Shown here piece after piece: positions 3,450 to 51,961 of a stretch of 64,000 bases of DNA. Within the stretch, counting starts at the first letter, position 1. Every line of letters starts with the position of its first letter. The notes below the pieces were generated by a model, which saw only the letters and a program-made list of their open reading frames with translations, was not told where the DNA came from and did no database searches. This DNA comes from Iodidimonas sp. SYSU 1G8. Its GTDB lineage: Bacteria > Pseudomonadota > Alphaproteobacteria > SMXS01. A program made the translations under genes and the position numbers. The stretch covers positions 372,001 to 436,000 of the forward strand of contig NZ_JBBYXJ010000002.1 in NCBI RefSeq assembly GCF_039655775.1, written 5' to 3'.

Positions 3450-4256
3450 GTGACGGCTACCGACACCGGCGAACCGCTGAACACCCGACAGATCGCCGAC
3501 CTGCTCGCTTTCGCGCATCGGCTCGCCGATGTCGCCGGCAGGGTGATCCGGCCGCATTTCCGCGCCTCCGGCGCGGTCGATAACAAGCGCCTCGCTGATT
3601 TCGATCCGGTCACCGCCGCCGATCGGGATGCCGAAAGCGCCATGCGCGACCTGATCGCCGCCCACTATCCTGATCATGCCGTCTATGGCGAGGAGCACGG
3701 CGCCCAGTGGGGCGCGCGTTTCACCTGGGTGCTCGACCCCATCGATGGCACCCGCTCGTTCATCGGCGGCTTTCCCACCTGGGGCACGCTGATCGCGCTC
3801 GCCGAACATGGCCGCCCGGTAATCGGCATCATGGACCAGCCGATTATCGGCGAGCGGTTCGTCGGCGCCCCGAACGGGGCCTTCCTCGGCGACCGGAAGC
3901 TCGCGGTGCGGCCCTGCGCCGGGCTGGCCGACGCTGTACTCTACGCGACCACTCCGGACATGTTCGAGCCGGCGCGCGAGATGCCGGCATTCCAGCGGGT
4001 CGAGCGGCAGGTGAAGCTGCGCCGCTTCGGCGGCGACTGCTACGCCTATTGCATGCTGGCGCACGGCCTGCTCGACGTGATCGTCGAGGCCGCCATGCAG
4101 CCCTATGACATCCAGGCGCTGATCCCGATCGTCGAGGGCGCGGGTGGCATCGTCACCAACTGGGAAGGCGAGCCGGCCTGGAATGCCGGGCGTATCCTGG
4201 CGGCGGGCGACAGGCGGGTCCATGCCGCGGCGCTCGAGGCGCTGAACCGGGCTTAA
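3450..4256 (+). CDS. hisN: histidinol-phosphatase, inositol-monophosphatase fold
   Basis: A 268-residue metal-dependent phosphatase. It has the family motifs GEEHG (metal-binding Glu, about residue 85) and WVLDPIDGTRSFIGGFPTWG (about 93-112), whose aspartates bind the catalytic metals, plus the late motif QPYDIQALIPIVEGAGG with the third aspartate. The GFPTWGTLIAL segment and the Y-A-T-T-P-D-M-F stretch resemble HisN-type histidinol phosphatases rather than SuhB, giving histidinol from histidinol phosphate. The start is GTG with AAGGGG 8 bases upstream. It is divergent from the FAD oxidoreductase and its stop overlaps the convergent hydrolase stop by 4 bases. Confidence 0.75.
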   Translation: MTATDTGEPLNTRQIADLLAFAHRLADVAGRVIRPHFRASGAVDNKRLADFDPVTAADRDAESAMRDLIAAHYPDHAVYGEEHGAQWGARFTWVLDPIDGTRSFIGGFPTWGTLIALAEHGRPVIGIMDQPIIGERFVGAPNGAFLGDRKLAVRPCAGLADAVLYATTPDMFEPAREMPAFQRVERQVKLRRFGGDCYAYCMLAHGLLDVIVEAAMQPYDIQALIPIVEGAGGIVTNWEGEPAWNAGRILAAGDRRVHAAALEALNRA

Positions 4257-5185
4257 GCCTCGTTCAGTATCCGGCGGCTGAAGTCGTCGAAAACGCGCCA
4301 GAACTCGTCCCGAAGCGGATCGCTCTCCTTGAGCAATTCGTGGCGCGCCCCGTCGATGCGGTGCAGTTCGCAGCAGGCCACACGCGCGGCGAAGCGGTCC
4401 TGCGCCGAGTTGGACACGATCCGGTCCTCCCCGGCCTGGACAATACAGACCGGGGTACGGAAACCGTCCAGATAGGCCCGGTCCTCGAACAGCGCGATGG
4501 ACCGCAGCGCCGCCTTCAGCCAGCCATAGGTGGCGCCGCCCGAGGCCAGATCCGGATTGGCCGCGATCTGCGCATGGGTGGCGGCAAAGCGCCGCGGGTC
4601 CGATGTCAGCCTGTTGCCATCGAAGACCTGCTTGTGGGAACCATAGTCGCGGCTTCCCGGCGCGTAGGCGTCCGAAAAGCCCAGGCCGACGCCGGTGTCG
4701 ATGATCGCGCCGATCAGCCAACGCAGACGCGTCGGCAGCGCGATATCCAGCATGGGCGCCGACAGCACCGCTCCGATGATCGCCGGGGGCCGGTTATGCA
4801 GATATCGCAGCGCGATGTGCCCGCCCATGGAATGGCCCAGCAGCAGGATGGGGCCTGGCAAGGTGGGGGCGACCCGGGTCTCGATGAACTGTTCCAGATC
4901 GTCGGCATAACGCCGGAAGCTTGTGGCGTGAATTTTCTGACGGTTGGCGAGGGATCGCTGCGACAGCCCCTGGCTGCGCCAGTCCAGCGCGGCGACGGCG
5001 AAATCCCGCGACAGCAGGTCGCCGATGGTTTCGAAATGCTTTTCGATGAACTCGGTGAAGCCGCCCAGCATCACCACCGTGCCGCGCGGCGTCGGCCGGG
5101 GCCAGAAGGCATAGCGCAAAACAGCGCCGTCATCGGCCCGGAAGGTCGCGAACGTCCCGCCCGGCGGCGACGGCATCGGCGTCAC
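4253..5185 (-). CDS. alpha/beta hydrolase, monoacylglycerol lipase / lysophospholipase-like
   Basis: A 310-residue serine hydrolase of the Hydrolase_4 type. The nucleophile elbow is GHSMGGHIALRYL (about residue 127-139), the oxyanion-region motif is MLGGFTEFIEKH (about 40), and the late catalytic His is in DGARHELLKESD (about 283). The DWRSQGLSQR element is typical of PldB/monoglyceride lipase relatives. No signal peptide is seen, so it should be cytosolic. Its ATG overlaps the stop of the upstream ABC-F gene (ATGA at 5182-5185), indicating translational coupling in a two-gene unit. Confidence 0.8.
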   Translation of the reverse strand: MTPMPSPPGGTFATFRADDGAVLRYAFWPRPTPRGTVVMLGGFTEFIEKHFETIGDLLSRDFAVAALDWRSQGLSQRSLANRQKIHATSFRRYADDLEQFIETRVAPTLPGPILLLGHSMGGHIALRYLHNRPPAIIGAVLSAPMLDIALPTRLRWLIGAIIDTGVGLGFSDAYAPGSRDYGSHKQVFDGNRLTSDPRRFAATHAQIAANPDLASGGATYGWLKAALRSIALFEDRAYLDGFRTPVCIVQAGEDRIVSNSAQDRFAARVACCELHRIDGARHELLKESDPLRDEFWRVFDDFSRRILNEA

Positions 5186-7026
5186 GCGGCGCCCTCCAGG
5201 TCTTCCCGCATCATTTCCAGTTCCAGCCAGCGGTCCTGCTTGCGCTCCAGCAGCTTGCGCGCGGTGTCCAGCAGCCTGGCCAGTTTGGCGATGGCGTCCG
5301 GGTCGCGCGCCAGCTCGCGCGGGTCCGCCAGCTGTCCCTCGATCTTGGCGATGTCGCGCTCCAGCGCTTCCATCTCGCCCGGCAGGTTTTCCAGCTCGCG
5401 CTGGTCCTTGTAGGTCATCTTCGGCTTGGGCGCGGTGCGCGGCGCATCGGCGGGCCGGGCCTTTGCCGCGGCGGGCGCCGGGACACTGTCGGTCTGCATC
5501 ATCGCCTGGATACCGCCGCGCTGCATCAGCATGTCCGAATAGCCGCCGGCATATTCACGGACTTTTCCGTCCGGGTCGAAGCTGATCGTGCTGGTGACCA
5601 TGCGGTCGAGGAAGTCGCGGTCATGGCTGACCAGCAGTACCGTGCCCGCATAGGAGGCGACGATGTCCTCCAGCACGTCCAGCATGTCCATGTCGAGATC
5701 GTTGGTGGGCTCGTCCAGGATCAGCACGTTGGACTGCTTGGTGAACAGCTTGGCGAGCAGTAGCCGGTTCTTCTCGCCGCCCGACAGCGCGCCCACGGGC
5801 TGGCGCGCCTGGCTGGGGTCGAAGAGGAAATCCTTCAGGTAGCCGACCACGTGACGGACCACGCCCTGGACGTTGACCGAATCGCCGCCGCCCCCGATTT
5901 CCTTGTCGGTCAGGGTTTCCCAAAGCGTGCGCTTGGGATCGAGCCGGGCGCGGGTCTGATCGAAATAGGCGACTTCCAGGTTGGTCCCCAGCTTGATCTG
6001 GCCGGAATCCTGCCGGATTTCGCCCGTCAGCAGCTTGATCAGCGTCGTCTTGCCCGCGCCGTTCGGGCCGACGATGCCGACCCGGTCGCCGCGCATGATG
6101 CGGGTCGAGAAGCCGTCGATGATGGTCCTGCCCCCATAGGACTTGCTGATGTTGCGCGCCTCGACGATACGGCGGCCGGCGGGCGGGCCGTCCTGCAGGT
6201 CCAGCTCGATCTTGTCGGGCTGTTTCAGCTGCTTCTGGCGCTTGTCGCGCAGCGCGTGCAACTCGCGCAGCCGGCCCTGGTTGCGGCGCCGGCGCGCGGT
6301 CACGCCCTTGTGCAGCCACTCGGTCTCCTCGATCAGCTTCTTCTCAAGCCGGTTCCGGACCGCCTCCTCTTCGGCGAAAATGGTCTCCGACCACTCGTCG
6401 AACGCGCTGTAGCCCTTCTCCATCACCCGCATGTTGCCCCGGTCCAGCCAGAAGGTGCGCCGGGTGACGGCCCGCAGGAAGGCCCGGTCGTGGCTGATCA
6501 GCAGCAGCGCCATGGGCGTGCTGGCCAGGGTTTTCTCGAGCCATAGGGTGGTGGCGATGTCCAGATGGTTGGTCGGCTCGTCCAGCAGCAGCACGTCCGG
6601 GTCGCCGACAAAGGCGCGGGCGATGGCCGCCTTGCGCAGCGCGCCGCCCGACAGGGTGCCGACCAGCGCCTCCGGATCGAGGCCCAGCGTCCCGATAAGG
6701 TCGCGGACCCGGTACTGGCGCTGGTCGCGATTGTCATCGTCCAACCCCTGCGACACGTAGTCGTTGACGCTCAGCTTGGGGTCGGGCGACGGATCCTGCG
6801 GCAGATACGCCACCTTGGTCCCGGGTTGCACGAAGCGCTCGCCCTTGTCGACCTCGATGATCCCGGCCAGGGCCTTGAGCAGGGTCGATTTGCCGCTGCC
6901 GTTGCGGCCGACGAGGCACACCTTGTCACCGGGCGAGATGGCCAGTTCCACGCCGCTGAACAGCGGCGCGGTGCCATAGGTGAGGCCGGCATTCTTCAGC
7001 GCGAGGATCGGTGGGCTCATGGCCAC
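5182..7026 (-). CDS. uup: ABC-F family ATPase, Uup-like
   Basis: A 614-residue soluble protein with two ABC nucleotide-binding domains and no membrane segment. The first Walker A is GRNGSGKST (about residues 39-47), with signature LSGGALRKAAIARA and Walker B VLLLDEPTNHLD. The second has GPNGAGKTT (about 319), signature LSGGEKNRLLLAKL and LILDEPTNDLDMD. Between them lies the charged linker of ABC-F translation factors; the C-terminus (about 540-610) is a coiled coil rich in Glu/Lys/Leu, as in Uup, which binds DNA and acts in ribosome or replication maintenance. ATG codons at 7026 and 7020 are both possible starts. Confidence 0.85.
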   Translation of the reverse strand: MAMSPPILALKNAGLTYGTAPLFSGVELAISPGDKVCLVGRNGSGKSTLLKALAGIIEVDKGERFVQPGTKVAYLPQDPSPDPKLSVNDYVSQGLDDDNRDQRQYRVRDLIGTLGLDPEALVGTLSGGALRKAAIARAFVGDPDVLLLDEPTNHLDIATTLWLEKTLASTPMALLLISHDRAFLRAVTRRTFWLDRGNMRVMEKGYSAFDEWSETIFAEEEAVRNRLEKKLIEETEWLHKGVTARRRRNQGRLRELHALRDKRQKQLKQPDKIELDLQDGPPAGRRIVEARNISKSYGGRTIIDGFSTRIMRGDRVGIVGPNGAGKTTLIKLLTGEIRQDSGQIKLGTNLEVAYFDQTRARLDPKRTLWETLTDKEIGGGGDSVNVQGVVRHVVGYLKDFLFDPSQARQPVGALSGGEKNRLLLAKLFTKQSNVLILDEPTNDLDMDMLDVLEDIVASYAGTVLLVSHDRDFLDRMVTSTISFDPDGKVREYAGGYSDMLMQRGGIQAMMQTDSVPAPAAAKARPADAPRTAPKPKMTYKDQRELENLPGEMEALERDIAKIEGQLADPRELARDPDAIAKLARLLDTARKLLERKQDRWLELEMMREDLEGAA

Positions 7027-7088
7027 GATGTATCAGGTCGCGGCGCGGCAGGGAATGGCGCAGTGGCGCCCGCGCATCGCGGTGGCGC

Positions 7089-7763
7089 TCAGGCCTTTTC
7101 CGGCGTCTGGAACACACGGTGGATAATGGTGCCCATGGCATCCTCCAGCCGCTTCCAGTCCTCGGGCTCGCGCACGGGGATGCCCCAGAAGTCCGGCGTC
7201 ACCCGGCCCCGCATGGTCAGGTGCTGGAAGCCGGCCAGCAGGATGGCGTAGATCGCGTCCGCGTCGACACCTTCCGGCGCCTCGACGCCGTGCATGAACT
7301 TGCGCTGGGATTCGCGTGCCGCGTTCCGCCGGGCGCGGGCCAGCGGCTCGATCACTTCCGGCGGCGCCGTCAGCTCCGAGGCCATGATCTCCTGCATCAT
7401 GGGCCGCTGCCGCAGGATGCGCGTATAGCAGATGATGGCGAGCCGGATCAGCTCGGCATAGTCGTCGACGCGCTGGCCCTTGGTCTCGTGCTGCGCCTCG
7501 GCCGAAATGTCGGCCACCGCGAGCCAGAAATGGGCGTCCTTGCCAAATTCCTCCAGCAGCGGTCCGAGCCCGCCGAAATAGCGGTAGATCAGCGGCTTGC
7601 CGATACCCGCTTCCTTCGCGATGGCGTTGACGCCAAGGCCGGTAAAGCCGTCGCGGGACAAGACCCGGCCCACGGCCTGCAGGATGTTTTTTCTGGTTGC
7701 TTCGGCGTCTCGGTGGGCCATTTGCCGTGTGTGTAGAGGGGCACTGTTCATCTTGGGAAGCAC
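7089..7763 (-). CDS. TetR/AcrR family transcriptional regulator
   Basis: A protein of up to 224 residues with an N-terminal TetR helix-turn-helix (RKNILQAVGRVLSRDGFTGL then VNAIAKEAGIGKPLIYRYFGG, roughly residues 24-66) and a larger all-helical ligand domain of unknown specificity. Three in-frame ATGs (7763, 7751, 7721) are possible starts. It is divergent from pmbA; the shared gap contains GCACAA (7760-7765) and TTGTGC (7786-7791), a 6-bp inverted repeat that could be its operator. The ligand and targets cannot be read from the sequence. Confidence 0.85.
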   Translation of the reverse strand: MLPKMNSAPLHTRQMAHRDAEATRKNILQAVGRVLSRDGFTGLGVNAIAKEAGIGKPLIYRYFGGLGPLLEEFGKDAHFWLAVADISAEAQHETKGQRVDDYAELIRLAIICYTRILRQRPMMQEIMASELTAPPEVIEPLARARRNAARESQRKFMHGVEAPEGVDADAIYAILLAGFQHLTMRGRVTPDFWGIPVREPEDWKRLEDAMGTIIHRVFQTPEKA

Positions 7764-7921
7764 AATCTACACCACAGTTTAGGTTTTGTGCCACGGGAAC
7801 GGACGGTTGCATGACAATTGATATAGGGCGGGTTTGGCCGGAGTTGCCGGTCGGTAACCGGTGTTCACGCCGACGCAAAGCACTCTATAGTGTGCGCCGC
7901 TCAATTTCGTAAGGACGTATC

Positions 7922-11197: not shown

Positions 11198-13075
11198 ATG
11201 GCAACCAATCTCGCAACTAAGCCGACGGCGAGCCAGGACGAACGCGTCCCCGCGAGCCTTGAATCCGTCGTCATCCGTTTTGCCGGCGATTCCGGCGACG
11301 GCATGCAGCTGACGGGCACGCAGTTCACGCATTCGACGGCGCTGATGGGCACCGATCTGGCGACTTTCCCGGACTTCCCGGCGGAAATTCGTGCGCCAAC
11401 CGGCACCACCTTTGGTGTCTCGGCCTATCAGATCAATTTCGGCGCGCGCAAGGTGATGACGGCGGGCGATCAGCCCGACGTGCTCGTCGCCATGAACCCG
11501 GCCGCCCTGAAGGTCAATCTGGACGCCCTGAAGATCGGCGGCACGCTGGTCGTCGACACGGGCTCGTTCAACGACCGCACCCTGGCGAAGGCTGGCTACA
11601 CGGCCAACCCGCTCGAGGATGGCACGATCGCCCCGTACAAGGTGATCCGCCTCGACATCACCAAGATGACCCTCGAATCCGTCAAGGAATTCGGCCTCTC
11701 CAACAAGGAGGCCATGCGCTGCAAGAACATGTGGACGCTTGGCCTGATGCTGTGGATGTATGGCCGTCAGCGACAGTCCGTCGTCGACTGGCTGCAGGGC
11801 AAGTTCGCCAAGTCGCAGCAGCTGGCCGATGCCAACATCGCCGCCGTCAACGCCGGTCACGCCTTCGGCGAGACGGCCGAGCTGGCCGGTGACCTGAGCC
11901 ATTCCACCGTCGGCCGCGCCGAAGTGGCGCCGGGCGTGTACCGCACCATCACCGGCGCGGAATCGCTGGCGCTGGGTCTGGTCGCGGGCGGCAAGCTGGC
12001 CAACCTCGACATCATGTTCGGCTCCTATCCGATCACGCCCGCCTCGACCCTGCTGCACCAGCTGGCGCGGCTGAAGGAACATGGCGTCGTGACCTTCCAG
12101 GCGGAAGACGAGATCGCGGCGATCTGCTCGGCCATCGGTGCGTCCTTCGCCGGCTCGCTGGGCGTGACGTCGTCGTCCGGTCCGGGCATCGCCCTGAAGG
12201 GCGAGGCCATGGGCCTTGCCATCGCCACCGAACTGCCGCTGGTGATTGTGAACTCGCAGCGCGGCGGTCCTTCGACCGGCCTGCCGACCAAGACCGAGCA
12301 GTCCGACTTGTACCAGGCGATCTACGGCCGCAACGGCGACGCGCCGCTGCCGGTCATCGCCTCGGCGACGCCGGGTGACTGCTTCGAGGTCGCCATCGAG
12401 GCCGTGCGCATCGCCACCAAGTACATGACCCCGGTGATCCTGCTGACCGACGGCTATCTGGCCAACGCGGCCGAGCCGTGGCCGGTGCCGGACTTCGACA
12501 GCCTGAAGCCGTTCCCGGTGCAGTTCCATACCGAGGCCGAGGGTTTCAGCCCGTCCACCCGCGACCCGGAGACGCTCGCGCGGAACTGGGCGATCCCGGG
12601 CAACCCGGGCACCGAGCACCGCATCGGCGGTATCGAGAAGGACTACAAGACCGGCAACCTGTCCTACGCGGCCGACAATCATCAGCTGATGACCGACACG
12701 CGCTGGAACAAGGTGCTCGGCATCGCCAATGATATCCCGGACCAGGAAATCGCCCAGGGCGAGGCAACCGGCGATCTCGTGGTGGTCGGCTGGGGCTCGA
12801 CCTTCGGGCCGATCTACCGGGCCGTCGAAACCGCGCGGGCGCAGGGCCTGAACGTGTCGCAGATCCACGTCCGCTACATGTGGCCGCTGCCGCGCAATCT
12901 GGGCCAGCTTCTCGGCGGGTTCAAGAAGGTGCTCGTGCCCGAGATGAACAAGGGCCAGTTCGCCACCGTCCTGCGCGACCAGTATCTGGTCGATGCCGTT
13001 CGCCTGAACCAGGTCAATGGCCAGCCCTTCAAGGTAAGCCACCTGACCCAGGTCATCAGCGACCTCGTGGGCTAA
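11198..13075 (+). CDS. korA: 2-oxoglutarate:ferredoxin oxidoreductase, alpha subunit (fused gamma-alpha)
   Basis: A 625-residue subunit of a 2-oxoacid:acceptor oxidoreductase. The N-terminal gamma-type domain begins with VVIRFAGDSGDGMQLTG (about residues 24-40), and the alpha domain contains FGSYPITPASTLLHQLA and FQAEDEIAAICSAIGASFAG, the pyrimidine-binding region for thiamine diphosphate, then TSSSGPGIALKGEAMGLA. With KorB it oxidatively decarboxylates 2-oxoglutarate to succinyl-CoA, reducing ferredoxin. The two-subunit fused form is the oxygen-tolerant type found in some alphaproteobacteria and actinobacteria. The start at 11198 has GGGAGAAG just before it; an upstream extension of 42 codons lacks similarity. 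korB follows after 11 bases. Confidence 0.9.
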   Translation: MATNLATKPTASQDERVPASLESVVIRFAGDSGDGMQLTGTQFTHSTALMGTDLATFPDFPAEIRAPTGTTFGVSAYQINFGARKVMTAGDQPDVLVAMNPAALKVNLDALKIGGTLVVDTGSFNDRTLAKAGYTANPLEDGTIAPYKVIRLDITKMTLESVKEFGLSNKEAMRCKNMWTLGLMLWMYGRQRQSVVDWLQGKFAKSQQLADANIAAVNAGHAFGETAELAGDLSHSTVGRAEVAPGVYRTITGAESLALGLVAGGKLANLDIMFGSYPITPASTLLHQLARLKEHGVVTFQAEDEIAAICSAIGASFAGSLGVTSSSGPGIALKGEAMGLAIATELPLVIVNSQRGGPSTGLPTKTEQSDLYQAIYGRNGDAPLPVIASATPGDCFEVAIEAVRIATKYMTPVILLTDGYLANAAEPWPVPDFDSLKPFPVQFHTEAEGFSPSTRDPETLARNWAIPGNPGTEHRIGGIEKDYKTGNLSYAADNHQLMTDTRWNKVLGIANDIPDQEIAQGEATGDLVVVGWGSTFGPIYRAVETARAQGLNVSQIHVRYMWPLPRNLGQLLGGFKKVLVPEMNKGQFATVLRDQYLVDAVRLNQVNGQPFKVSHLTQVISDLVG

Positions 13076-13086
13076 GGAGACCGATT

Positions 13087-14109
13087 ATGAACGAAATGGC
13101 TCCGCAGAAGCTGACCGCCAAGGATTACGCGACCGACCAGGAAGTACGCTGGTGCCCCGGTTGCGGCGATTACGCCATCCTGAAGTCGGTGCAGAAGACC
13201 CTGGCCGATCTTGAAGCCGATCCGGCGAACACCGTGTTCGTGTCGGGCATCGGCTGCAGCTCGCGCTTTCCCTACTACATGGCCACTTACGGCTTCCACA
13301 CCATCCACGGCCGCGCCCCGGCGTTCGCCACCGGCATCAAGCTGGCGAATCCCAAGCTCGACGTGTGGATGGTCACCGGTGACGGCGACGGCCTGTCCAT
13401 CGGCGGCAATCACCTGCTGCATGTGCTTCGCCGGAATGTCGACATCCAGATCCTGCTGTTCAACAACGAGATCTATGGTCTGACCAAGGGCCAGTACTCG
13501 CCCACCTCGCGGCCGGGCACGCGCTCGCCGTCGAGCCCGGGCGGCTCGATCGAACGCAATCTCAACCCCTGCAACTTCGCCCTGGCCGCCGGCGCGCGCT
13601 TCGTCGCCCGTACCGTCGACACGGACCAGAAGCACATGCCGGAGATCCTGAAGCGTGCGCACGGCCATCGCGGCGCCTCCTTCGTCGAGATCTATCAGAA
13701 CTGCATCGTGTTCAACGATGGCGTGTTCGCCGACTTCACCGAGAAGAAGGCCGCCGCCGACCGTCAGCTGCGCGCCGAGAACGGCCACAAGCTCGTCTTT
13801 GGCGCCAATGGCGAGAAGGGCCTGCGGCTCAACCCGAACAAGCTCGAACTCGAGGTCGTCACCATCGGCGAGAATGGCGTGACCCTGGACGAGATTCTGG
13901 TGCATGACGAGACCGACGCGGTGCTGGCCCAGATGCTGGTGACTCTCGATGGTCCGGATGCGCCGGTCGTCGTCGGTGTCATCTACTGCAATCCGGTGGA
14001 CACCTACGATGCGGGCGTCTCCAAGCAGGTCGAGCGTGCCAAGACCGCCAAGCCGAACGCCGACATGAAGGAACTGCTGTTCGCCGGCAGCACCTGGACC
14101 GTCGACTGA
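13087..14109 (+). CDS. korB: 2-oxoglutarate:ferredoxin oxidoreductase, beta subunit
   Basis: A 340-residue thiamine-diphosphate-binding subunit. VRWCPGCGDYAIL near residue 20 holds the CxxC that with a later Cys (GIGCSSRFPYY) ligates the single [4Fe-4S] cluster; the cofactor motif runs from VTGDGDGLSIGGNHLLH (about 98) to LLFNNEIYGLTKGQYSPTS (about 124-142). LTKGQYSPTS is typical of KorB. The gene follows korA with AAGGAGA 6 bases before its ATG and ends at a strong terminator, so korAB is a two-gene operon. No ferredoxin gene lies next to it, though a ferredoxin reductase is 1.2 kb away. Confidence 0.92.
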   Translation: MNEMAPQKLTAKDYATDQEVRWCPGCGDYAILKSVQKTLADLEADPANTVFVSGIGCSSRFPYYMATYGFHTIHGRAPAFATGIKLANPKLDVWMVTGDGDGLSIGGNHLLHVLRRNVDIQILLFNNEIYGLTKGQYSPTSRPGTRSPSSPGGSIERNLNPCNFALAAGARFVARTVDTDQKHMPEILKRAHGHRGASFVEIYQNCIVFNDGVFADFTEKKAAADRQLRAENGHKLVFGANGEKGLRLNPNKLELEVVTIGENGVTLDEILVHDETDAVLAQMLVTLDGPDAPVVVGVIYCNPVDTYDAGVSKQVERAKTAKPNADMKELLFAGSTWTVD

Positions 14110-25003: not shown

Positions 25004-25848
25004 ACGCCGCGCCCGGCAATGTGGACACCGACAAGGCGGCCCCCGCGCGTCCGCGCCGAAGCCACCGGCCGCCCGCGCGCATCGTCCTGACGCTCGAGCC
25101 CGAATCCCTCGGCGGCGGCGCCATCGACACGGCCGTCAGGCTGGCCCGCGCCTACGGCGCCGAGCTGGCCGCCGTCTTCGTCAAGACCAGCGGCATGCTG
25201 GCCATGGTCTCGCTCCCCTTCGGCGGCACGGTCATCAGCCGCTCGGGCCTGTCCCTCACCATCGACCGGGGCGGGCTCGATCACCGGCTCGACCGGCTGG
25301 CGCGGCAGGCGCAGGCGACGCTGGCCCGCGCGGCGGGCGACCGGGTGCGCTGGTCGTTCCGCACCGCCACCGGCTACACCGAGCAGGTGGCCGCGCTCGA
25401 GGCGCTGCCCGGCGACCTGTTCGCCATCTGCTCGCGCACCGCCCGCCAGGTGTGCGAGGCCATGGAGACCCATGCCTGCTCGCTGCTGCTGCTCGGCGAC
25501 GGCGTGGCGCGCGACCGGCCCGTCATCGCCCTGTTCGAGGGCGACACCGCCCTGCTGGTGGCGGCGCGCGACATGGCCGAGGCGCTCGGCAAGGAATTGC
25601 TGGTGGTGCTGCCGTCCGGCCCCGCCGCGCCCCGCTGGCGGCGCAGCGTACGCGGCTGGCTGGACCGGCGCGGCCTTTCCGCCCGTGTGCTGCAATCCAG
25701 CCTCGCCGAGGGCGCCGCCCTCGCCGGCGAACTGGCGCGCCTTGCCCCCGGCCTCCTCGTGATGGGCCGGCAGGCGCCCGCCGGCGCGTCGGTGCGCGGT
25801 GTCTATGAAAGCGCCGGTCGGGGCGTGCCCCTGCTACTGGTGTCCTGA
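25000..25848 (+). CDS. universal-stress-protein-like protein of unknown function
   Basis: A 282-residue cytosolic protein not firmly recognised. After a basic, Pro-rich leader (about residues 1-27) it shows ARIVLTLEPESLGGGAIDTA and ARAYGAELAAVFVKTSG, which resemble the first strand, helix and second strand of the Usp fold, with a second half (about 165-282) that may be another divergent alpha/beta unit. The ATP-binding GxxGxxS signature of Usp proteins is not obvious, although LLVMGRQAPAGASVRGVYES near the end is reminiscent. ATGA overlap with the Lon-like gene implies translational coupling, so it may be an adaptor or regulator of that protease, which is an inference only. Confidence 0.5.
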   Translation: MNAAPGNVDTDKAAPARPRRSHRPPARIVLTLEPESLGGGAIDTAVRLARAYGAELAAVFVKTSGMLAMVSLPFGGTVISRSGLSLTIDRGGLDHRLDRLARQAQATLARAAGDRVRWSFRTATGYTEQVAALEALPGDLFAICSRTARQVCEAMETHACSLLLLGDGVARDRPVIALFEGDTALLVAARDMAEALGKELLVVLPSGPAAPRWRRSVRGWLDRRGLSARVLQSSLAEGAALAGELARLAPGLLVMGRQAPAGASVRGVYESAGRGVPLLLVS

Positions 25849-25890
25849 TACGGACATGCTATATCTCCGGCACATCCGGAGGTTGTATTC

Positions 25891-26292
25891 ATGATCTTCA
25901 TTTCCGTCACGCGGTTGCGCATCCGCTCATGGCGCGCCATGCCGGCCTTCGCCTGGCATGTGCTGCGCGTGGTGCGCCAGGCCCGCACGGCCCCCGGCAG
26001 CATCGAGGTCGAGCTGCTGGCCGATGCACGGCGCACCTTCTGGACCTGCTCGGTCTGGCGCGGCGAGGCGGCCATGCGCGATTTCATGCTGTCCGGCGCC
26101 CACCGCGCCGTCATGCCGCGGCTGGCTGGCTGGTGCGACGAAGCCTCGGTGGTGCACTGGGCGCAGATCGCCTCCGAGCTGCCCGGCTGGGACGAAATCT
26201 GGCGGCGCATGGCCGAACAGGGCCGCCCGTCGCCCGTCGATCACCCGTCGCCCGCGCACCTGGCGTTCGAGATCGCGCCGATCCGCCGCTAG
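25891..26292 (+). CDS. small protein with probable dimeric alpha/beta-barrel (monooxygenase-like) fold
   Basis: A 133-residue protein beginning MIFISVTRLRIRSWRAMPAF. The arrangement of an N-terminal strand, an Arg-rich helix (AWHVLRVVRQARTAPGS), VELLADARRTFWTCSVWRGE and then AMRDFMLSGAHRAVMPRLAGW matches small DUF3291/ABM-like proteins, in which the FWTCSVWxxxxxMxxF pattern recurs. Function is not known. A good ribosome site (GGAGG, 8 bases before ATG) is present. It is convergent with the next small gene. Confidence 0.6.
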   Translation: MIFISVTRLRIRSWRAMPAFAWHVLRVVRQARTAPGSIEVELLADARRTFWTCSVWRGEAAMRDFMLSGAHRAVMPRLAGWCDEASVVHWAQIASELPGWDEIWRRMAEQGRPSPVDHPSPAHLAFEIAPIRR

Positions 26293-26299
26293 GCCGCGC

Positions 26300-26596
26300 T
26301 CAGCGGGCGGGCGCGTCCGCCGGTGCCGCGTCCGGTTTCCCCGGCGCCGCTTCCTTGCGCTCGTGAAGGGGGTTGTGGCCGCTGCCGACAGGGGCCTCGT
26401 GCAGCGGATTGCCGGGCGCCGCCGCCGCGCCCATGTCGCTGTGCGCCTTGTAGGAATCATAGCCCTTGCGCGCCGCCGCCGCTTCGTCCGGCGGCGCGAC
26501 CGTGTTGGCATCGCGCGGCGGCGCCGCATCGGCGGCCCGGGCGGGCAGGGATCCGGCCATCACGGCCAGGCATGCGCAGACCATCAACGTTTTCAT
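26300..26596 (-). CDS. small secreted hypothetical protein
   Basis: A 98-residue protein with a signal peptide (MKTLMVCACLAVMAGSLPARAA) and a low-complexity Ala/Pro-rich, probably disordered mature part. HNPLHERKEAAPGKPDA and GNPLHEAPVG share the motif NPLHE. No family is recognised. The ATG at 26596 follows AGGGGAG at a usable distance; an upstream in-frame ATG at 26632 would precede the signal peptide by 12 residues. Confidence 0.55.
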   Translation of the reverse strand: MKTLMVCACLAVMAGSLPARAADAAPPRDANTVAPPDEAAAARKGYDSYKAHSDMGAAAAPGNPLHEAPVGSGHNPLHERKEAAPGKPDAAPADAPAR

Positions 26597-26690
26597 CGGC
26601 AGGCTCCCCTCGATCCCATGACAATGGGTCATCCAGGAGAGTAGGCTCGCGATGGAACTGCCGCAATGGCGGCTCGCGTGCTGTCACCCG

Positions 26691-27127
26691 CTAGGCGTTG
26701 TCCGGCAAGCGTTCTGCGTCGCCGACCGTCTCTTGCGGGCCATCCGCGTGGTAACAGACAAAGGCCAGCTTGTTGCCGTCAGGGTCGCGCACATCGGCGA
26801 TGTAGAAGTCCAACGCATAGTGCGGCCGCAAGCCCGGCGCGCCCTCCTCCGACCCGCCCCGCGCCAACGCGATGGCATGGAGGTGTCGACCAGTTCGACG
26901 TTCGGCGCGCGAAGCGCCAGCATCACCCCATTGTCCACGCTCGCCGGCGCGCCGTCGAATGGCCGGCCGACACAAAGCCCCGGCATGCCGTAATCGTCCA
27001 GCGATGCCCAGGAAACGCTCTTGTCCCCGGACCAGCATCGCGGCTGCCCCAGTCGCTCCATCAACGCATCATAGAAGCAGGCCGCCCGGTCCAGATCGTT
27101 GGTTCCAAGCATGGCATAGGCGAACAT
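26691..27127 (-). pseudogene. VOC (glyoxalase-like) family gene broken by a frameshift
   Basis: The first 80 codons read as a VOC protein (MFAYAMLGTNDLDRAACFYD, then KSVSWASLDDYGMPGLCVGR), but after VELVDT the frame runs into Arg-rich nonsense. The expected C-terminal half (HAIALARGGSEEGAPGLRP, then YIADVRDPDGNKLAFVCYH) continues in another frame from about 26877 to the stop at 26691. One missing C in a run near 26880 (ACC-TCC where ACC-CTC would restore the frame) explains it. The restored protein would be about 145 residues with the usual paired beta-alpha-beta-beta-beta modules. It is either a recent pseudogene or a sequencing error. Confidence 0.75.
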
Positions 27128-27263
27128 GGGACTCTCCGGAATGGGTGAGCTCGTCGCTGCAGGGGCATAGCATCTATGTTAACCAGAATATTGCATAAGG
27201 GGCCTGCTAGCCCCGGTACCTGATCAGTAACGAAGCCGTCAGGTGGGATTTGTTTCTAGGAAA

Positions 27264-27300
27264 TGCTGGTACATTGATCCAGCAAGTTGCATCTTGCTGG
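27264..27300 (+). promoter_or_regulatory. mutually exclusive hairpins in the leader of the ATPase gene
   Basis: TGCTGG (27264-27269) and CTTGCTGG (27293-27300) can both pair with the middle segment CCAGCAAG (27279-27286). The second pairing is a perfect 8-bp stem with a TTGCAT loop; the first uses 6 bp. It lies 115 bases before the likely ATG. No T tract follows, so it is not a plain terminator. The rest of the gap (27128-27414) holds no recognisable gene. Confidence 0.5.
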
Positions 27301-27414
27301 TGAAACGATCCTGTGGCGGCCAGTTATCCAGAACTGATTGATGGAAACACATCGTAGAGTCGGTGGGGGCACAGTCGCTACTCGGTGCTAGTATTTATGG
27401 ATTTGAGGGACGCT

Positions 27415-29532
27415 ATGCCTGCCTTTACGCCAAAGCAACTTGACAGTTTTCACAGTGCGGCCATCTCTCTTAAGCTGTTTAGCCGTGCTGAGCTAACAGA
27501 TGAGAAAGACCGTTCTCTTATCGAAAAGCTTTACGTTGACCCTCTTCCTAATGATCAGGTATTTAAGACATTGTTGGCGCCCAGTACTACTATCATTGTA
27601 GGCCGGAAGGGGACTGGAAAATCCACGGTCTTTCAACGTGTCCAGCATGAAGTCCGAAAAAATAAGATGAGTGCCATTTCGGCCTACATGGATATACGGA
27701 ACGTATACGAATCATCGCAAGTTGATCCAGGAGCAGCGGCAAAATTAGATATTTTCCATAATGCAATGTCTACTGAGCAGATACAAAAATTTCTTTTGTA
27801 TAAGCGGTTTTTTTATACTCTCATATCTGACATCCGGGATGAGCTAAAAAGACAAGTTGATCAGCACTTTTTAGGTAAACTTAAGCAGCGCCTAACAGGC
27901 ACCTCAGCGGAGGTATTTTCTGGCCTCGACAAAATTATTTCCCATTTAGATCACCCCAACTACGAAAACATAGATGGATTCTTATCGAAAGATAAGAAAG
28001 TGTTGTTTTCTGAAAAAACTAGCGACAAAGATATCGCGGCTTTACAAGTGGGAGCCTCTGAGCGAGGGATATCAGTAGGCGCGGACGTTAGTGCAGAATC
28101 AGGACACTCATTAGAAGAAGCAGGAGAGGAGGTTTACACCCAGATATTAATGCGAGTTGTTGGTGTTAATGAAGTATTAGATGAGATAAAGAAGATTCTC
28201 TCGGCGTTGGGAATCAAGCATTTGTATTTATTTCTTGATGATTTTTCGGAGCTTCCTAGGGAGGCGATGAACATACTCGTGGATGCTCTAATTTCTCCAC
28301 TATCTAGATGGTCTGATTTTATTAAATTCAAGATCGCCGCATATCCTGGGAGAGTATATTTGGGATCCCTTGATACTACAAAAATGGAAATAATAAATCT
28401 CGATATGTATGGTCTATATGGACAGTCTGGTGTGAATAAAATGGAAGAAAAAGCCATAGACTTTGTCCGACGCCTTGTTGAAAAGAGAGTTCAGTATTAT
28501 TGCAAATCTAGTATTGATGGATTTTTTAACCAGAGAAGTTCCGATTTATGGAGACATTTGTTTTATGCATCAATGGCAAACCCGAGAACGTTAGGGCATA
28601 TACTTCTGTACGCCCATGAGGCTAATCTAATTTATGGAAGCGCCATTGGTGTGCAGGCAATTCAGGAGGCAGCTCAACGTTATTACGAAGATAAGATTGC
28701 GCCGTTTTTCACTACAGGAAAATATAAAATGGCGTTTGAAGAGCGGTCATCAGTCTACTCGCTTAAGGAGTTGTTAGAGCGAGTTGTTTCTAGGGCCAGA
28801 AGCATCCGGCAAGAGGGCTCTAGAGATGGTGCTCATTCGCGCTCTAGACCTTTTTCTAGCCATTTCTACGTAGCTCAGGACTACGACGAGCTTTTGCTCT
28901 CGTTGGAATTGTCCTTCTTTATGACAAAGTATTTTGAGCAATCAGATCGCGCTGGCAAAAGAGTGTCGGTCTACGCTCTAAATTACGGCTTATGTATGAA
29001 GTATCAGATCGGATTCGGGCGCCCGTCAGATCGACGCGAGGATCGATTATATTTTGTGGATAGGCAATTTGACTATAATGGAATTGTTCTGGAGTACGTA
29101 AATTCGAATCAAGAGGTCAAGTGCGATAGCTGTATGACTGAGTTTGATATGTCAATGTTGAGTTCGTTAAAAACGTTTAAAATGAGATGTCCAAACTGCT
29201 TAAGGGGACAATGCAAAGTTATAAATCTTTCGAAAAAATACGGCGATGTTTTGGAGGCCATTAGTCCAGAGTTGTTGCTTCCTGATGCCGAGCTTGGGAT
29301 AATGCAGGTGTTGTATGCAGAAGACGAAACTCTAGTTGCATCGCAAATAGCAACAGAGCTTGACTGTTCCGGCCAGTTGGTCGGCAGGAGGGGGCGAAAC
29401 CTTGCCGAGCGTAAACTGGTTGAGCGAGAGCAGAAAGGGAACGTATTCAGCTACACTCTGACCAATCAAGCGAGGACTGCCTATTTTAGTGATACAAGCG
29501 GTGATTCGCTGTTATTAGAAGGCGAAGTTTAG
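27415..29532 (+). CDS. AT-rich P-loop ATPase with zinc ribbon and winged helix; candidate defence protein
   Basis: A 705-residue protein unlike its neighbours in base composition (visibly AT-rich, about 40-45% GC in sampled lines against a GC-rich background). Walker A is VGRKGTGKST (62-71) and Walker B is LYLFLDDF (270-277). A sensor-2-like NPRTLGHILLYAHE lies at 389-402. A four-Cys zinc ribbon is formed by C570, C573, C592 and C595. A winged helix (about 625-692) follows, with SQIATELDCSGQLVGRRGRN as recognition region. It resembles the P-loop ATPases seen as lone genes in genomic islands (KAP/Sll1717-like), but no named family is certain. GAGGG lies 6 bases before ATG 27415; GTG 27385 and ATG 27397 are alternatives. 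It stands alone between a broken VOC gene and tRNA-Gly. Confidence 0.8.
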   Translation: MPAFTPKQLDSFHSAAISLKLFSRAELTDEKDRSLIEKLYVDPLPNDQVFKTLLAPSTTIIVGRKGTGKSTVFQRVQHEVRKNKMSAISAYMDIRNVYESSQVDPGAAAKLDIFHNAMSTEQIQKFLLYKRFFYTLISDIRDELKRQVDQHFLGKLKQRLTGTSAEVFSGLDKIISHLDHPNYENIDGFLSKDKKVLFSEKTSDKDIAALQVGASERGISVGADVSAESGHSLEEAGEEVYTQILMRVVGVNEVLDEIKKILSALGIKHLYLFLDDFSELPREAMNILVDALISPLSRWSDFIKFKIAAYPGRVYLGSLDTTKMEIINLDMYGLYGQSGVNKMEEKAIDFVRRLVEKRVQYYCKSSIDGFFNQRSSDLWRHLFYASMANPRTLGHILLYAHEANLIYGSAIGVQAIQEAAQRYYEDKIAPFFTTGKYKMAFEERSSVYSLKELLERVVSRARSIRQEGSRDGAHSRSRPFSSHFYVAQDYDELLLSLELSFFMTKYFEQSDRAGKRVSVYALNYGLCMKYQIGFGRPSDRREDRLYFVDRQFDYNGIVLEYVNSNQEVKCDSCMTEFDMSMLSSLKTFKMRCPNCLRGQCKVINLSKKYGDVLEAISPELLLPDAELGIMQVLYAEDETLVASQIATELDCSGQLVGRRGRNLAERKLVEREQKGNVFSYTLTNQARTAYFSDTSGDSLLLEGEV

Positions 29533-29617
29533 TACTTGCGTTGGCAGGGAGTGCTCACGATTACGGATAACAGCCTTCAAAACAGGCTCGCCCGCATCTC
29601 TACCAATTACAAAAAAC

Positions 29618-29691
29618 TGGAGCGGGTGAAGGGAATCGAACCCTCGTCGTAAGCTTGGGAAGCTTCTGCTCTACCATTGAGCTACACCCGC
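29618..29691 (-). tRNA. tRNA-Gly(CCC)
   Basis: On the minus strand the gene runs from GCGGGTGTAGCTC to ACCCGCTCCA. The 7-bp acceptor stem GCGGGTG/CACCCGC, D-arm GCTC-AATGGTA-GAGC, anticodon loop TTCCCAA (anticodon CCC) and T-arm GAGGG-TTCGATT-CCCTT are all present. CCA is encoded. The AT-rich ATPase gene ends 85 bases from its 3' end, the typical side for island insertion. Confidence 0.97.
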
Positions 29692-50771: not shown

Positions 50772-51080
50772 TCAGGCGGCGCTGGGGAGCGGACGGGCGC
50801 GCTCGATGCGGCTGCGCTCGGCGGGCGAGTTCATGGCGTCCCAGAGGTCGGTGCGGCGCTGGACGTTCAGCCAGAAATCCGCGCTGTTGCCGAACACCCG
50901 CGCCAGGATCAGCGCGGTCGGCGCGGTCACCGAGCGGCGGTCGTTGCACAACTCGTTGACGTGCTTGCGCGGCACACCCATCGCCTCGGCCAGCGCACCC
51001 TGCGTCAGGCCCAGCGGCTTCATGAATTCCTCGATCAGCATCTCGCCCACGGTCACGGGCTTACGTTTTGTGGTCAGCAT
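50772..51080 (-). CDS. higA: HigA family antitoxin
   Basis: A 102-residue DNA-binding antitoxin. The XRE-type helix-turn-helix is in MKPLGLTQGALAEAMGVPRK followed by HVNELCNDRRSVTAPTALIL, and ARVFGNSADFWLNVQRRTDL is the near-invariant HigA C-terminal block. As usual for hig loci, the toxin gene comes first; higA starts 4 bases after it. ATG 51080 is chosen; the open frame continues into higB in another frame. Confidence 0.93.
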   Translation of the reverse strand: MLTTKRKPVTVGEMLIEEFMKPLGLTQGALAEAMGVPRKHVNELCNDRRSVTAPTALILARVFGNSADFWLNVQRRTDLWDAMNSPAERSRIERARPLPSAA

Positions 51081-51084
51081 GGCG

Positions 51085-51381
51085 TCACCTGTAGCTGTGG
51101 TCGTCCAGATAAACCTCGTCCGCTTCCCCCTTGGTCCCATCCCATCGGAAGACCAGCCGCCACTGCTGGTTGACCCGGATGGAATGGAAGCCATTCAGAT
51201 TCCCGCGCAGCTTCTCGAAGTGATTGCTCGGCGGGACTCGCAGGTCCTGATCCGTCATCGCGTCATCGAGCAGCTGCAGTTTGCGAAATAATCGATCCTC
51301 AATGTCTGGCGGGATACGGCGCGACCGGACATCGTCGATGTAGAAATCCCGCAGCCAATCGTCCCGAAACCCAACAATCAT
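51085..51381 (-). CDS. higB: HigB family RelE-fold toxin
   Basis: A 98-residue toxin of the RelE superfamily. MIVGFRDDWLRDFYIDD opens the protein and FRKLQLLDDAMTDQDLRVPP with NHFEKLRGNLNGFHSIRVNQ and QWRLVFRW cover the HigB core; these enzymes cut mRNA on the ribosome. The C-terminal V-Y-L-D-D-H-S-Y matches. AGTG-TAC-CACT (51400-51410), a small palindrome just upstream, may be the HigA operator. Confidence 0.93.
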   Translation of the reverse strand: MIVGFRDDWLRDFYIDDVRSRRIPPDIEDRLFRKLQLLDDAMTDQDLRVPPSNHFEKLRGNLNGFHSIRVNQQWRLVFRWDGTKGEADEVYLDDHSYR

Positions 51382-51424: not shown

Positions 51425-51961
51425 TCAATCGCTACTGTGTTGGTGCTCTCGAAACCAGCGATTGGCCGATGGTGTGAACAGGAGAGCTAGTCCCACGGTC
51501 AGCAAGACCCCCTGACTCGCTAGGAGTAAATTGATCACGAGCTTCCCTCCCAGCCAGTCTGGATCTGGGAGCGCGCAAGCTGGACAATGAATTACGGTTG
51601 TTCCGTTCTCTTCAATGCTCCAGCTACGAGGTTCCTCATCGCCCATCTGACGGGTCCCTTCCTCGGTGAGAATCAGGTCGCGATGAAGCTTGGGCAATTC
51701 CTGCGCGGCGATGTAGCCGCTGAACAGACTGACAACCATGATCCCGAGGTAGATATAGCGCGCCCAATTGCCGCCATCGGCGAGGTTCTTCAACAGCACT
51801 GCGATAAGCGCCAGAACGAGTGCGATTATTATGACTTTCAACGGACTATAAATTGCGAGTAAGCCGAGGGAAGCCACGGCGAGAAGACAAAAATTTACCA
51901 CCAGCAGGAGTAGTCCGACCAATACGGTGCGGGGCCTTTGCAGGATGGGCGTATCGTTCAT
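51425..51961 (-). CDS. hypothetical membrane protein with three or four helices
   Basis: A 178-residue protein not recognised as a family. Helices are visible at about 12-36 (VLVGLLLLVVNFCLLAVASL), 39-58 (PLKVIIIALVLALIAVLL), 68-88 and 143-163 (LVINLLLASQGVLLTVGLAL); the loop at about 90-140 has HCPACALPDPDWLGG with a CxxC pair. Its base composition is somewhat less GC-rich than its neighbours, and with higBA beside it the segment 50.8-52.0 kb may be a small acquired patch. No function is proposed. Confidence 0.6.
   Translation of the reverse strand: MNDTPILQRPRTVLVGLLLLVVNFCLLAVASLGLLAIYSPLKVIIIALVLALIAVLLKNLADGGNWARYIYLGIMVVSLFSGYIAAQELPKLHRDLILTEEGTRQMGDEEPRSWSIEENGTTVIHCPACALPDPDWLGGKLVINLLLASQGVLLTVGLALLFTPSANRWFREHQHSSD

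Follow-up and report, generated by a model that had tools for sequence, protein, structure and literature searches.

The locus and its borders

The window analysed here is the whole stretch of 64,000 nt from Iodidimonas sp. SYSU 1G8, and the features of the locus under study are collected in Table 1. A single gene for a 705-residue ATPase occupies the interval between a VOC-like gene and tRNA-Gly(CCC). Its open reading frame and motif positions, first given in an earlier note made from the sequence alone, were rechecked and are correct. The ATG at 27415 is the start: the homology to the nearest relative (Mesorhizobium, locus L007) begins exactly there, and GAGGGA sits a short way 5' of it. The compositional anomaly pointed out in that note was reproduced as well. 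The GC content of the gene is 0.426 (GC3 0.42) against 0.669 in the remaining window, and its codon-usage distance of 0.457 is the largest among the 51 genes of more than 150 aa in the window, with the runner-up at 0.321 and the median at 0.13. Promoter and terminator scans around the gene gave no signal above chance, and the tRNA was the sole match of an Rfam scan at the locus.

Table 1. Features of the ATPase gene and its borders, in coordinates of the window.
Feature	Position	Strand	Remarks
VOC-like gene, left border	26684..27127	-	Frameshifted, N half and C half in different frames; high GC, outside the mobile gene
CDS, ORC/Cdc6-like AAA+ ATPase with C-terminal zinc ribbon and winged helix	27415..29532	+	705 aa
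Walker A GRKGTGKST, aa 63-71	27601..27627	+	Near-invariant in 16 homologues
G/A/S/T-rich variable insert, possible beta-hairpin, aa 195-238	27997..28128	+	Model, low confidence
Walker B region HLYLFLDDFSE, aa 269-279	28219..28251	+	D275, D276, S278, E279 invariant
Sensor-2-like block NPRTLGH, aa 389-395	28579..28599	+	P390, R391, G394 invariant
Probable first winged helix after lid, aa 441-529	28735..29001	+	Secondary structure of the models; name suggested by the ORC/Cdc6 fold match
Four-Cys zinc ribbon, C570, C573, C592, C595	29122..29199	+	Invariant in 16 homologues
C-terminal MarR/ArsR-like winged helix, aa 624-691	29284..29487	+	AlphaFold and homology
tRNA-Gly(CCC), right border	29618..29691	-	Same-genus homology resumes at 29614-29618

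The frameshift reported for the VOC-like gene was confirmed. It is a single one, between the two halves, and could represent either decay or an assembly error. The DNA of this gene matches Shinella and Burkholderia replicons, which carry no listed gene there.

The ATPase gene flanks the tRNA on its 3' side and ends 85 nt from the tRNA 3' end, an arrangement which the earlier note had taken for a classic insertion side. This part of the claim is less well supported. As the same note had stated, the DNA from the upstream core genes to the tRNA contains no integrase, transposase or partner ORF; moreover, no direct repeat of the tRNA region of at least 11 nt is found in 25501-29600, so that no scar of a site-specific insertion is seen, and the homologues in other genomes are not linked to tRNA-Gly. 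Since both the tRNA-end repeat and the integrase are missing, site-specific tRNA integration is not supported, and the interpretation as a tRNA-integrated genomic island was rejected.

When five genomes of the same genus were compared, tRNA-Gly(CCC) and mscS were syntenic in all of them and the ATPase gene was missing from all of them. The upstream core block (from the Lon-like protease gene onwards, to about 26160-26283) was also matched in four of the five, the fifth contig stopping short of it. Same-genus homology breaks off 0-4 nt past the tRNA 3' end. A clean empty site was not found in the congeners, as the interval varies in content and by our reading holds GST/cupin, GIY-YIG or VapBC-like genes. 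The tRNA-adjacent interval is therefore variable, and the ATPase gene is present only in this genome among those compared.

Protein architecture

The Walker A, Walker B and NPRTLGH motifs and the four-Cys ribbon, all named in the earlier note, are kept in 16 homologues, with K69, S70, T71, D275, D276, E279, P390, R391, G394 and the four cysteines among the invariant residues; the C-terminal winged helix is recovered in the AlphaFold model at 624-691. This model was built from a 16-row alignment (pLDDT 76, pTM 0.76) and suggests a layout of N-terminal helices, an AAA+ core at about 30-310, a lid at 340-431, a probable winged helix at 441-529, the zinc ribbon at 570-595 and the second winged helix. 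In the Foldseek search the top PDB matches were archaeal Orc1/Cdc6 bound to origin DNA, followed by ORC and TnsC, with weak whole-protein matches (TM 0.2-0.5). Placement in the ORC/Cdc6 clade, defined by Walker A and B, a sensor-2 Arg in a lid and a winged helix following it, is tentative: the motifs are invariant and Orc1/Cdc6 ranks first in the fold search, but at low TM, and the first winged helix is read from secondary structure. No nuclease, NADase or other effector domain was detected in the protein, and a nuclease-type effector was rejected for want of a Pfam match. Membership of the STAND/NACHT group was rejected too, the matches being below cut-off.

The stretch at aa 195-238, which lies between the Walker A and Walker B halves, is the least conserved of the protein. 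Its G/A/S/T content is 25-56% compared with 18-32% in the whole proteins, and its alternating pattern exceeds that of shuffled sequences with a combined p of 1e-5, a value obtained from sequences that are not independent and at an angle chosen by the analyst. In the AlphaFold model it appears as a low-confidence hairpin. The insert may serve as a sensor loop or else as a hidden effector. A specific form of the latter, rather unlikely in our estimate, is that it constitutes an amphipathic beta-hairpin which, once an AAA+ ring had formed on invader DNA, would insert into the membrane or polymerise and so kill the infected cell. If so, sensor, switch and killer would be combined in one protein. 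By eye, an alternating segment of small residues also precedes Walker B in some relatives from the Sll1717 and DS-41 families (L060, L061, L062, L064, L046), and it may be a feature of the superfamily.

Relation to known families

No specific model for the family was found in NCBIfam, Pfam or PADLOC as searched, and phmmer gave no match against PDB. Three existing models are matched in part. The Sll1717 family model NF047389 scores 48.3 bits, under its curated cut-off of 75 bits; a profile-profile comparison by hhalign with seven Sll1717 proteins is significant (E 1.6e-9) over aa 34-467, that is, the ATPase and lid, whereas the zinc ribbon and MarR-like winged helix of the window protein lie outside the matched span. 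Our literature search found no paper on Sll1717. The DS-41 model NF053860 scores 47.2 bits (E 1.5e-12) over aa 28-282 and does not reach its equivalog cut-off of 370 bits, but the homology of the ATPase domain is significant and 13 of 16 family members match. PF24389 (ORC-CDC6-like) scores 32.7 bits, above its gathering cut-off of 27, although only aa 36-83 align; it matches 9 of the 16 members at E<=0.01.

Plain membership of the Sll1717 or the DS-41 family was rejected, since the scores fall below both cut-offs; the sequence comparisons make the window protein a distant relative of both. It shares a P-loop/ORC-CDC6-like core with DS-41, and the DS41_1 protein L046, which scores above the cut-off, also matches PF24389 and by our reading likewise ends in CxxC pairs. 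However, the window protein is about 200 aa longer and carries the C-terminal winged helix, and hhalign of the window family with one DS41_1 sequence was not significant. DS-41 protects E. coli in plaque assays (DefensePredictor, PMC13092281).

Orc1/Cdc6 and TnsC, the best fold matches (2qby, 1fnn, 8fcu), are likewise AAA+ proteins with a lid and winged helix. They differ from the window protein in sequence (8-12% identity), and its gene context is neither that of a replication initiator nor that of a transposon. BrxC/BrxD and SspC, from the BREX and Ssp systems, are ATPases of the ORC/Cdc6 clade that act in defence, often with wHTH domains; PMC12839542 and PMC10853773 treat them together with related conflict systems. 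In contrast to the window gene, they are encoded in operons of several genes, alongside methyltransferase, PglZ or Ssp partners, and BREX (BrxC) membership was rejected as there are no BrxX/PglX or PglZ neighbours beside the gene.

Our literature search found no paper describing a lone gene with an ATPase, a zinc ribbon and a MarR-like winged helix. The word "undescribed" used in the earlier note calls for a restriction, since the ATPase core belongs to the known ORC/Cdc6-like, Sll1717-related superfamily.

Distribution and transfer of the family

In protein searches of 60 relatives and 397 genomes of the phylum, the window gene was the sole match. Because single-protein pattern scans of the genome and viral collections were also empty, a two-member alignment was used for the scans, and it yielded 20 genome loci and several viral contigs (sequences are numbered with the prefix L). 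About 20 homologues were found in members of Pseudomonadota, Actinomycetota and Bacillota, along with divergent forms, among them those of Hyphomonadaceae and Lokiarchaeota. Identity to the window protein is 77% in Mesorhizobium, 66-67% in Rhizobium and Sphingomonas, 45-49% in Reyranella, Mycobacteriaceae, Microbacteriaceae and two viral contigs, and 28-36% in Bacillota, Gammaproteobacteria, other viral contigs and an Enterobacter plasmid.

Within the class, the family profile matches 2 of 337 genomes, this one included, and none of six congeners; the match in the second genome agrees in contig place and score with that of the Reyranella MAG. A housekeeping gene at a fixed locus was rejected on these figures. 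The earlier note had named two outcomes that would speak against its proposal, namely homologues at a fixed syntenic locus with normal composition and a characterised housekeeping family, and neither was found.

The DNA comparisons indicate how the gene travels. Loci L012, L013 and L017 belong to different lineages and have different neighbours, and their DNA identity of 87-92% is limited to the CDS, about 45 nt before it and 10 nt after it. Similarly, the DNA match between the window and L007 is confined to the stretch from the ATG to near the stop codon. At all 19 loci compared, the GC content of the gene is lower than that of its flanks. No neighbour gene family recurs among the loci read, so that the shared unit is the CDS alone with no conserved partner gene, as expected of a lone system. 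The family moves as a lone CDS, and it is a real, well-delimited, mobile family of one gene.

Broken copies were also seen: the Caulobacter copy (L015, 9989-12108) is split by a frameshift, and those of Flavobacterium and Pedococcus (L020, 10001-10999; L022, 10001-10408) are truncated. This suggests that loss is common. In the inovirus KSF-1phi, a Vibrio phage (L003), only an N-terminal fragment of the family protein is present; it corresponds to ORF XII/XIII (6413-6900), annotated as hypothetical only, with 45% identity over about 120 aa.

Genomic contexts of the homologues

Several homologues lie in phage DNA. L026 is a fragment of a P2-like phage, in which the gene adjoins the portal gene (PF04860) and a gpP-like terminase. 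The cos-proximal region from gpA to the portal gene gpQ is a hotspot of anti-phage systems and the site of P2 old and tin (Rousset et al., PMC9122126); the homologue shares this kind of site with old and tin, but has no family match to them and is another gene. In the Mesorhizobium loci L007 and L025 the gene adjoins an S24-type repressor, at one end of a predicted provirus, and it is not certain that the gene is inside this provirus. In L024 it is near tape-measure/tail and terminase genes, at the contig end, and the copy in L043 belongs to a Bacillota-type prophage that has an Mrr_cat gene in the vicinity.

Other copies are close to defence genes. The gene is directly downstream of a Type III R-M pair in L042 and adjoins a C5 methylase and an EcoO109I endonuclease (Type II R-M) in L016. 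A Snf2-type helicase and DUF4391 are nearby in L014, and Type III R-M models were matched in the pooled neighbour set. There are ABC-3C genes near the L023 copy, with tmRNA 1 kb upstream, and a RiboL-PSP HEPN gene near that of L018. Integrases are nearby in L005 (by test) and in L006 and L008 (by reading). In L013 a patatin-like phospholipase gene and a small SLATT-like membrane protein are encoded near the homologue (4083-7863), possibly as separate defence genes. At roughly half of the chromosomal loci, L004, L011, L012 and L015 among them, no defence gene was recognised up to 5 kb away, nor does the window have one beside the ATPase gene.

As a control, PADLOC models were run at 1e-10 on the genes up to 5 kb from the homologue at 15 loci, and on 15 stretches of 10 kb from the same contigs. 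It was found that 144 PADLOC families were matched near the homologues and 36 in the control stretches, where the counts are of models and not of systems, the models cross-hit and the control is small. The single clear defence gene in the control stretches is AbiD, and the remaining matches shown look like generic cross-hits. The excess over the control is supportive only. The homologues are found at phage hotspots, on mobile elements and within defence islands, as would be expected of a single-gene anti-phage system.

Predicted function

The P2-like hotspot, the prophages, the small plasmid, the inovirus remnant, the R-M and ABC-3C neighbours and the distant homology to DS-41 support the earlier idea of a lone mobile NTPase of defence type, with a predicted anti-phage activity. 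Our preferred interpretation, with a probability of roughly 60%, is that this is an autonomous system of one gene that spreads horizontally and acts against phages or plasmids. The rarity of the family, its transfer as a lone unit, the homology to Sll1717 and the fold resemblance to Orc1/Cdc6, ORC and TnsC count in favour of it as well; the loci that have no recognised defence gene nearby, the small control and the low TM values count against it. It is credible that the family represents a new variant of the ORC/Cdc6-type defence ATPases, with a predicted function. In the mechanism we propose, the zinc ribbon and winged helices would bind invader nucleic acid, either replicating or incoming DNA; ATP would drive AAA+ assembly on this DNA, by analogy with Orc1/Cdc6 and TnsC; and the assembled complex would block the replication of the invader or shut the cell down. 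As the protein has no recognisable effector domain, the ATPase assembly itself is taken as the putative effector, possibly via the variable G/A/S-rich insert.

The alternative that carries most weight, unlikely as we consider it, is that an ORC/Cdc6 ATPase similar to an initiator or helicase loader, serving the replication or maintenance of mobile elements, was left behind in chromosomes. Besides the ORC/Cdc6-like fold, two small elements bear on it. L002 is a 6-kb MOBP Enterobacter plasmid whose copy (WP_181241462.1) starts inside the last codons of rep, and the KSF-1phi remnant directly precedes a replication gene. The overlap with rep fits a replication role and is counted against defence; carriage by a 6-kb plasmid and an inovirus, where little cargo fits, is counted for it. 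However, the plasmid has its own rep (Replicase and PriCT_1), KSF-1phi replicates with a fragment only, and the other loci, whether lone chromosomal, beside a prophage repressor or portal gene, or after R-M operons, contain no replicon genes.

It is quite unlikely that the gene belongs to a defence system of several genes, with partners located elsewhere or differing from host to host. The ORC/Cdc6 ATPases of BREX, Ssp and HerA-coupled systems do work with partners (PMC12839542, PMC10853773) and several copies adjoin R-M or ABC-3C genes, but the restriction of the shared unit to the CDS argues against it, as does the lack of a recurring neighbour family among the loci read. Less probable still is an ATP-dependent transcription regulator, responsive to metal or stress and mobile for other reasons. 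The MarR/ArsR-like winged helix is the best-resolved C-terminal homology and a zinc ribbon is present; yet there is no conserved target operon or divergent partner, the AAA+ motifs are fully kept, and defence and phage hotspots are an odd location for such regulators. Finally, the frameshifted VOC-like gene next to it and the decayed copies L015, L020 and L022 might suggest that the gene is a passenger in decay, on which no selection acts in this genome. This is very improbable, since the 705-aa frame is open with every motif retained and the identity to L007 is 77% for the protein compared with about 69% for the DNA, as under purifying selection.

ORC/Cdc6-type ATPases recur in bacterial immunity, mostly within large operons; the family reported here is a self-contained combination of ATPase, zinc ribbon and winged helix, spreading singly over three phyla. 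If a role in defence is confirmed, it would offer a minimal system for asking how an ATPase of this type recognises an invader and arrests it.

Other genes in the window

Apart from the locus, a 277-aa ORF (13072-13905, minus strand), with no Pfam match, has the third most deviant codon usage in the window. An ORF of low GC content (51425-51961, GC 0.545, no Pfam match) encodes a membrane protein. It adjoins a HigBA-like pair which, by our reading, consists of a HigB-like toxin ORF (51085-51381, minus strand) followed by a HigA-like XRE antitoxin (50772-51194, minus strand).
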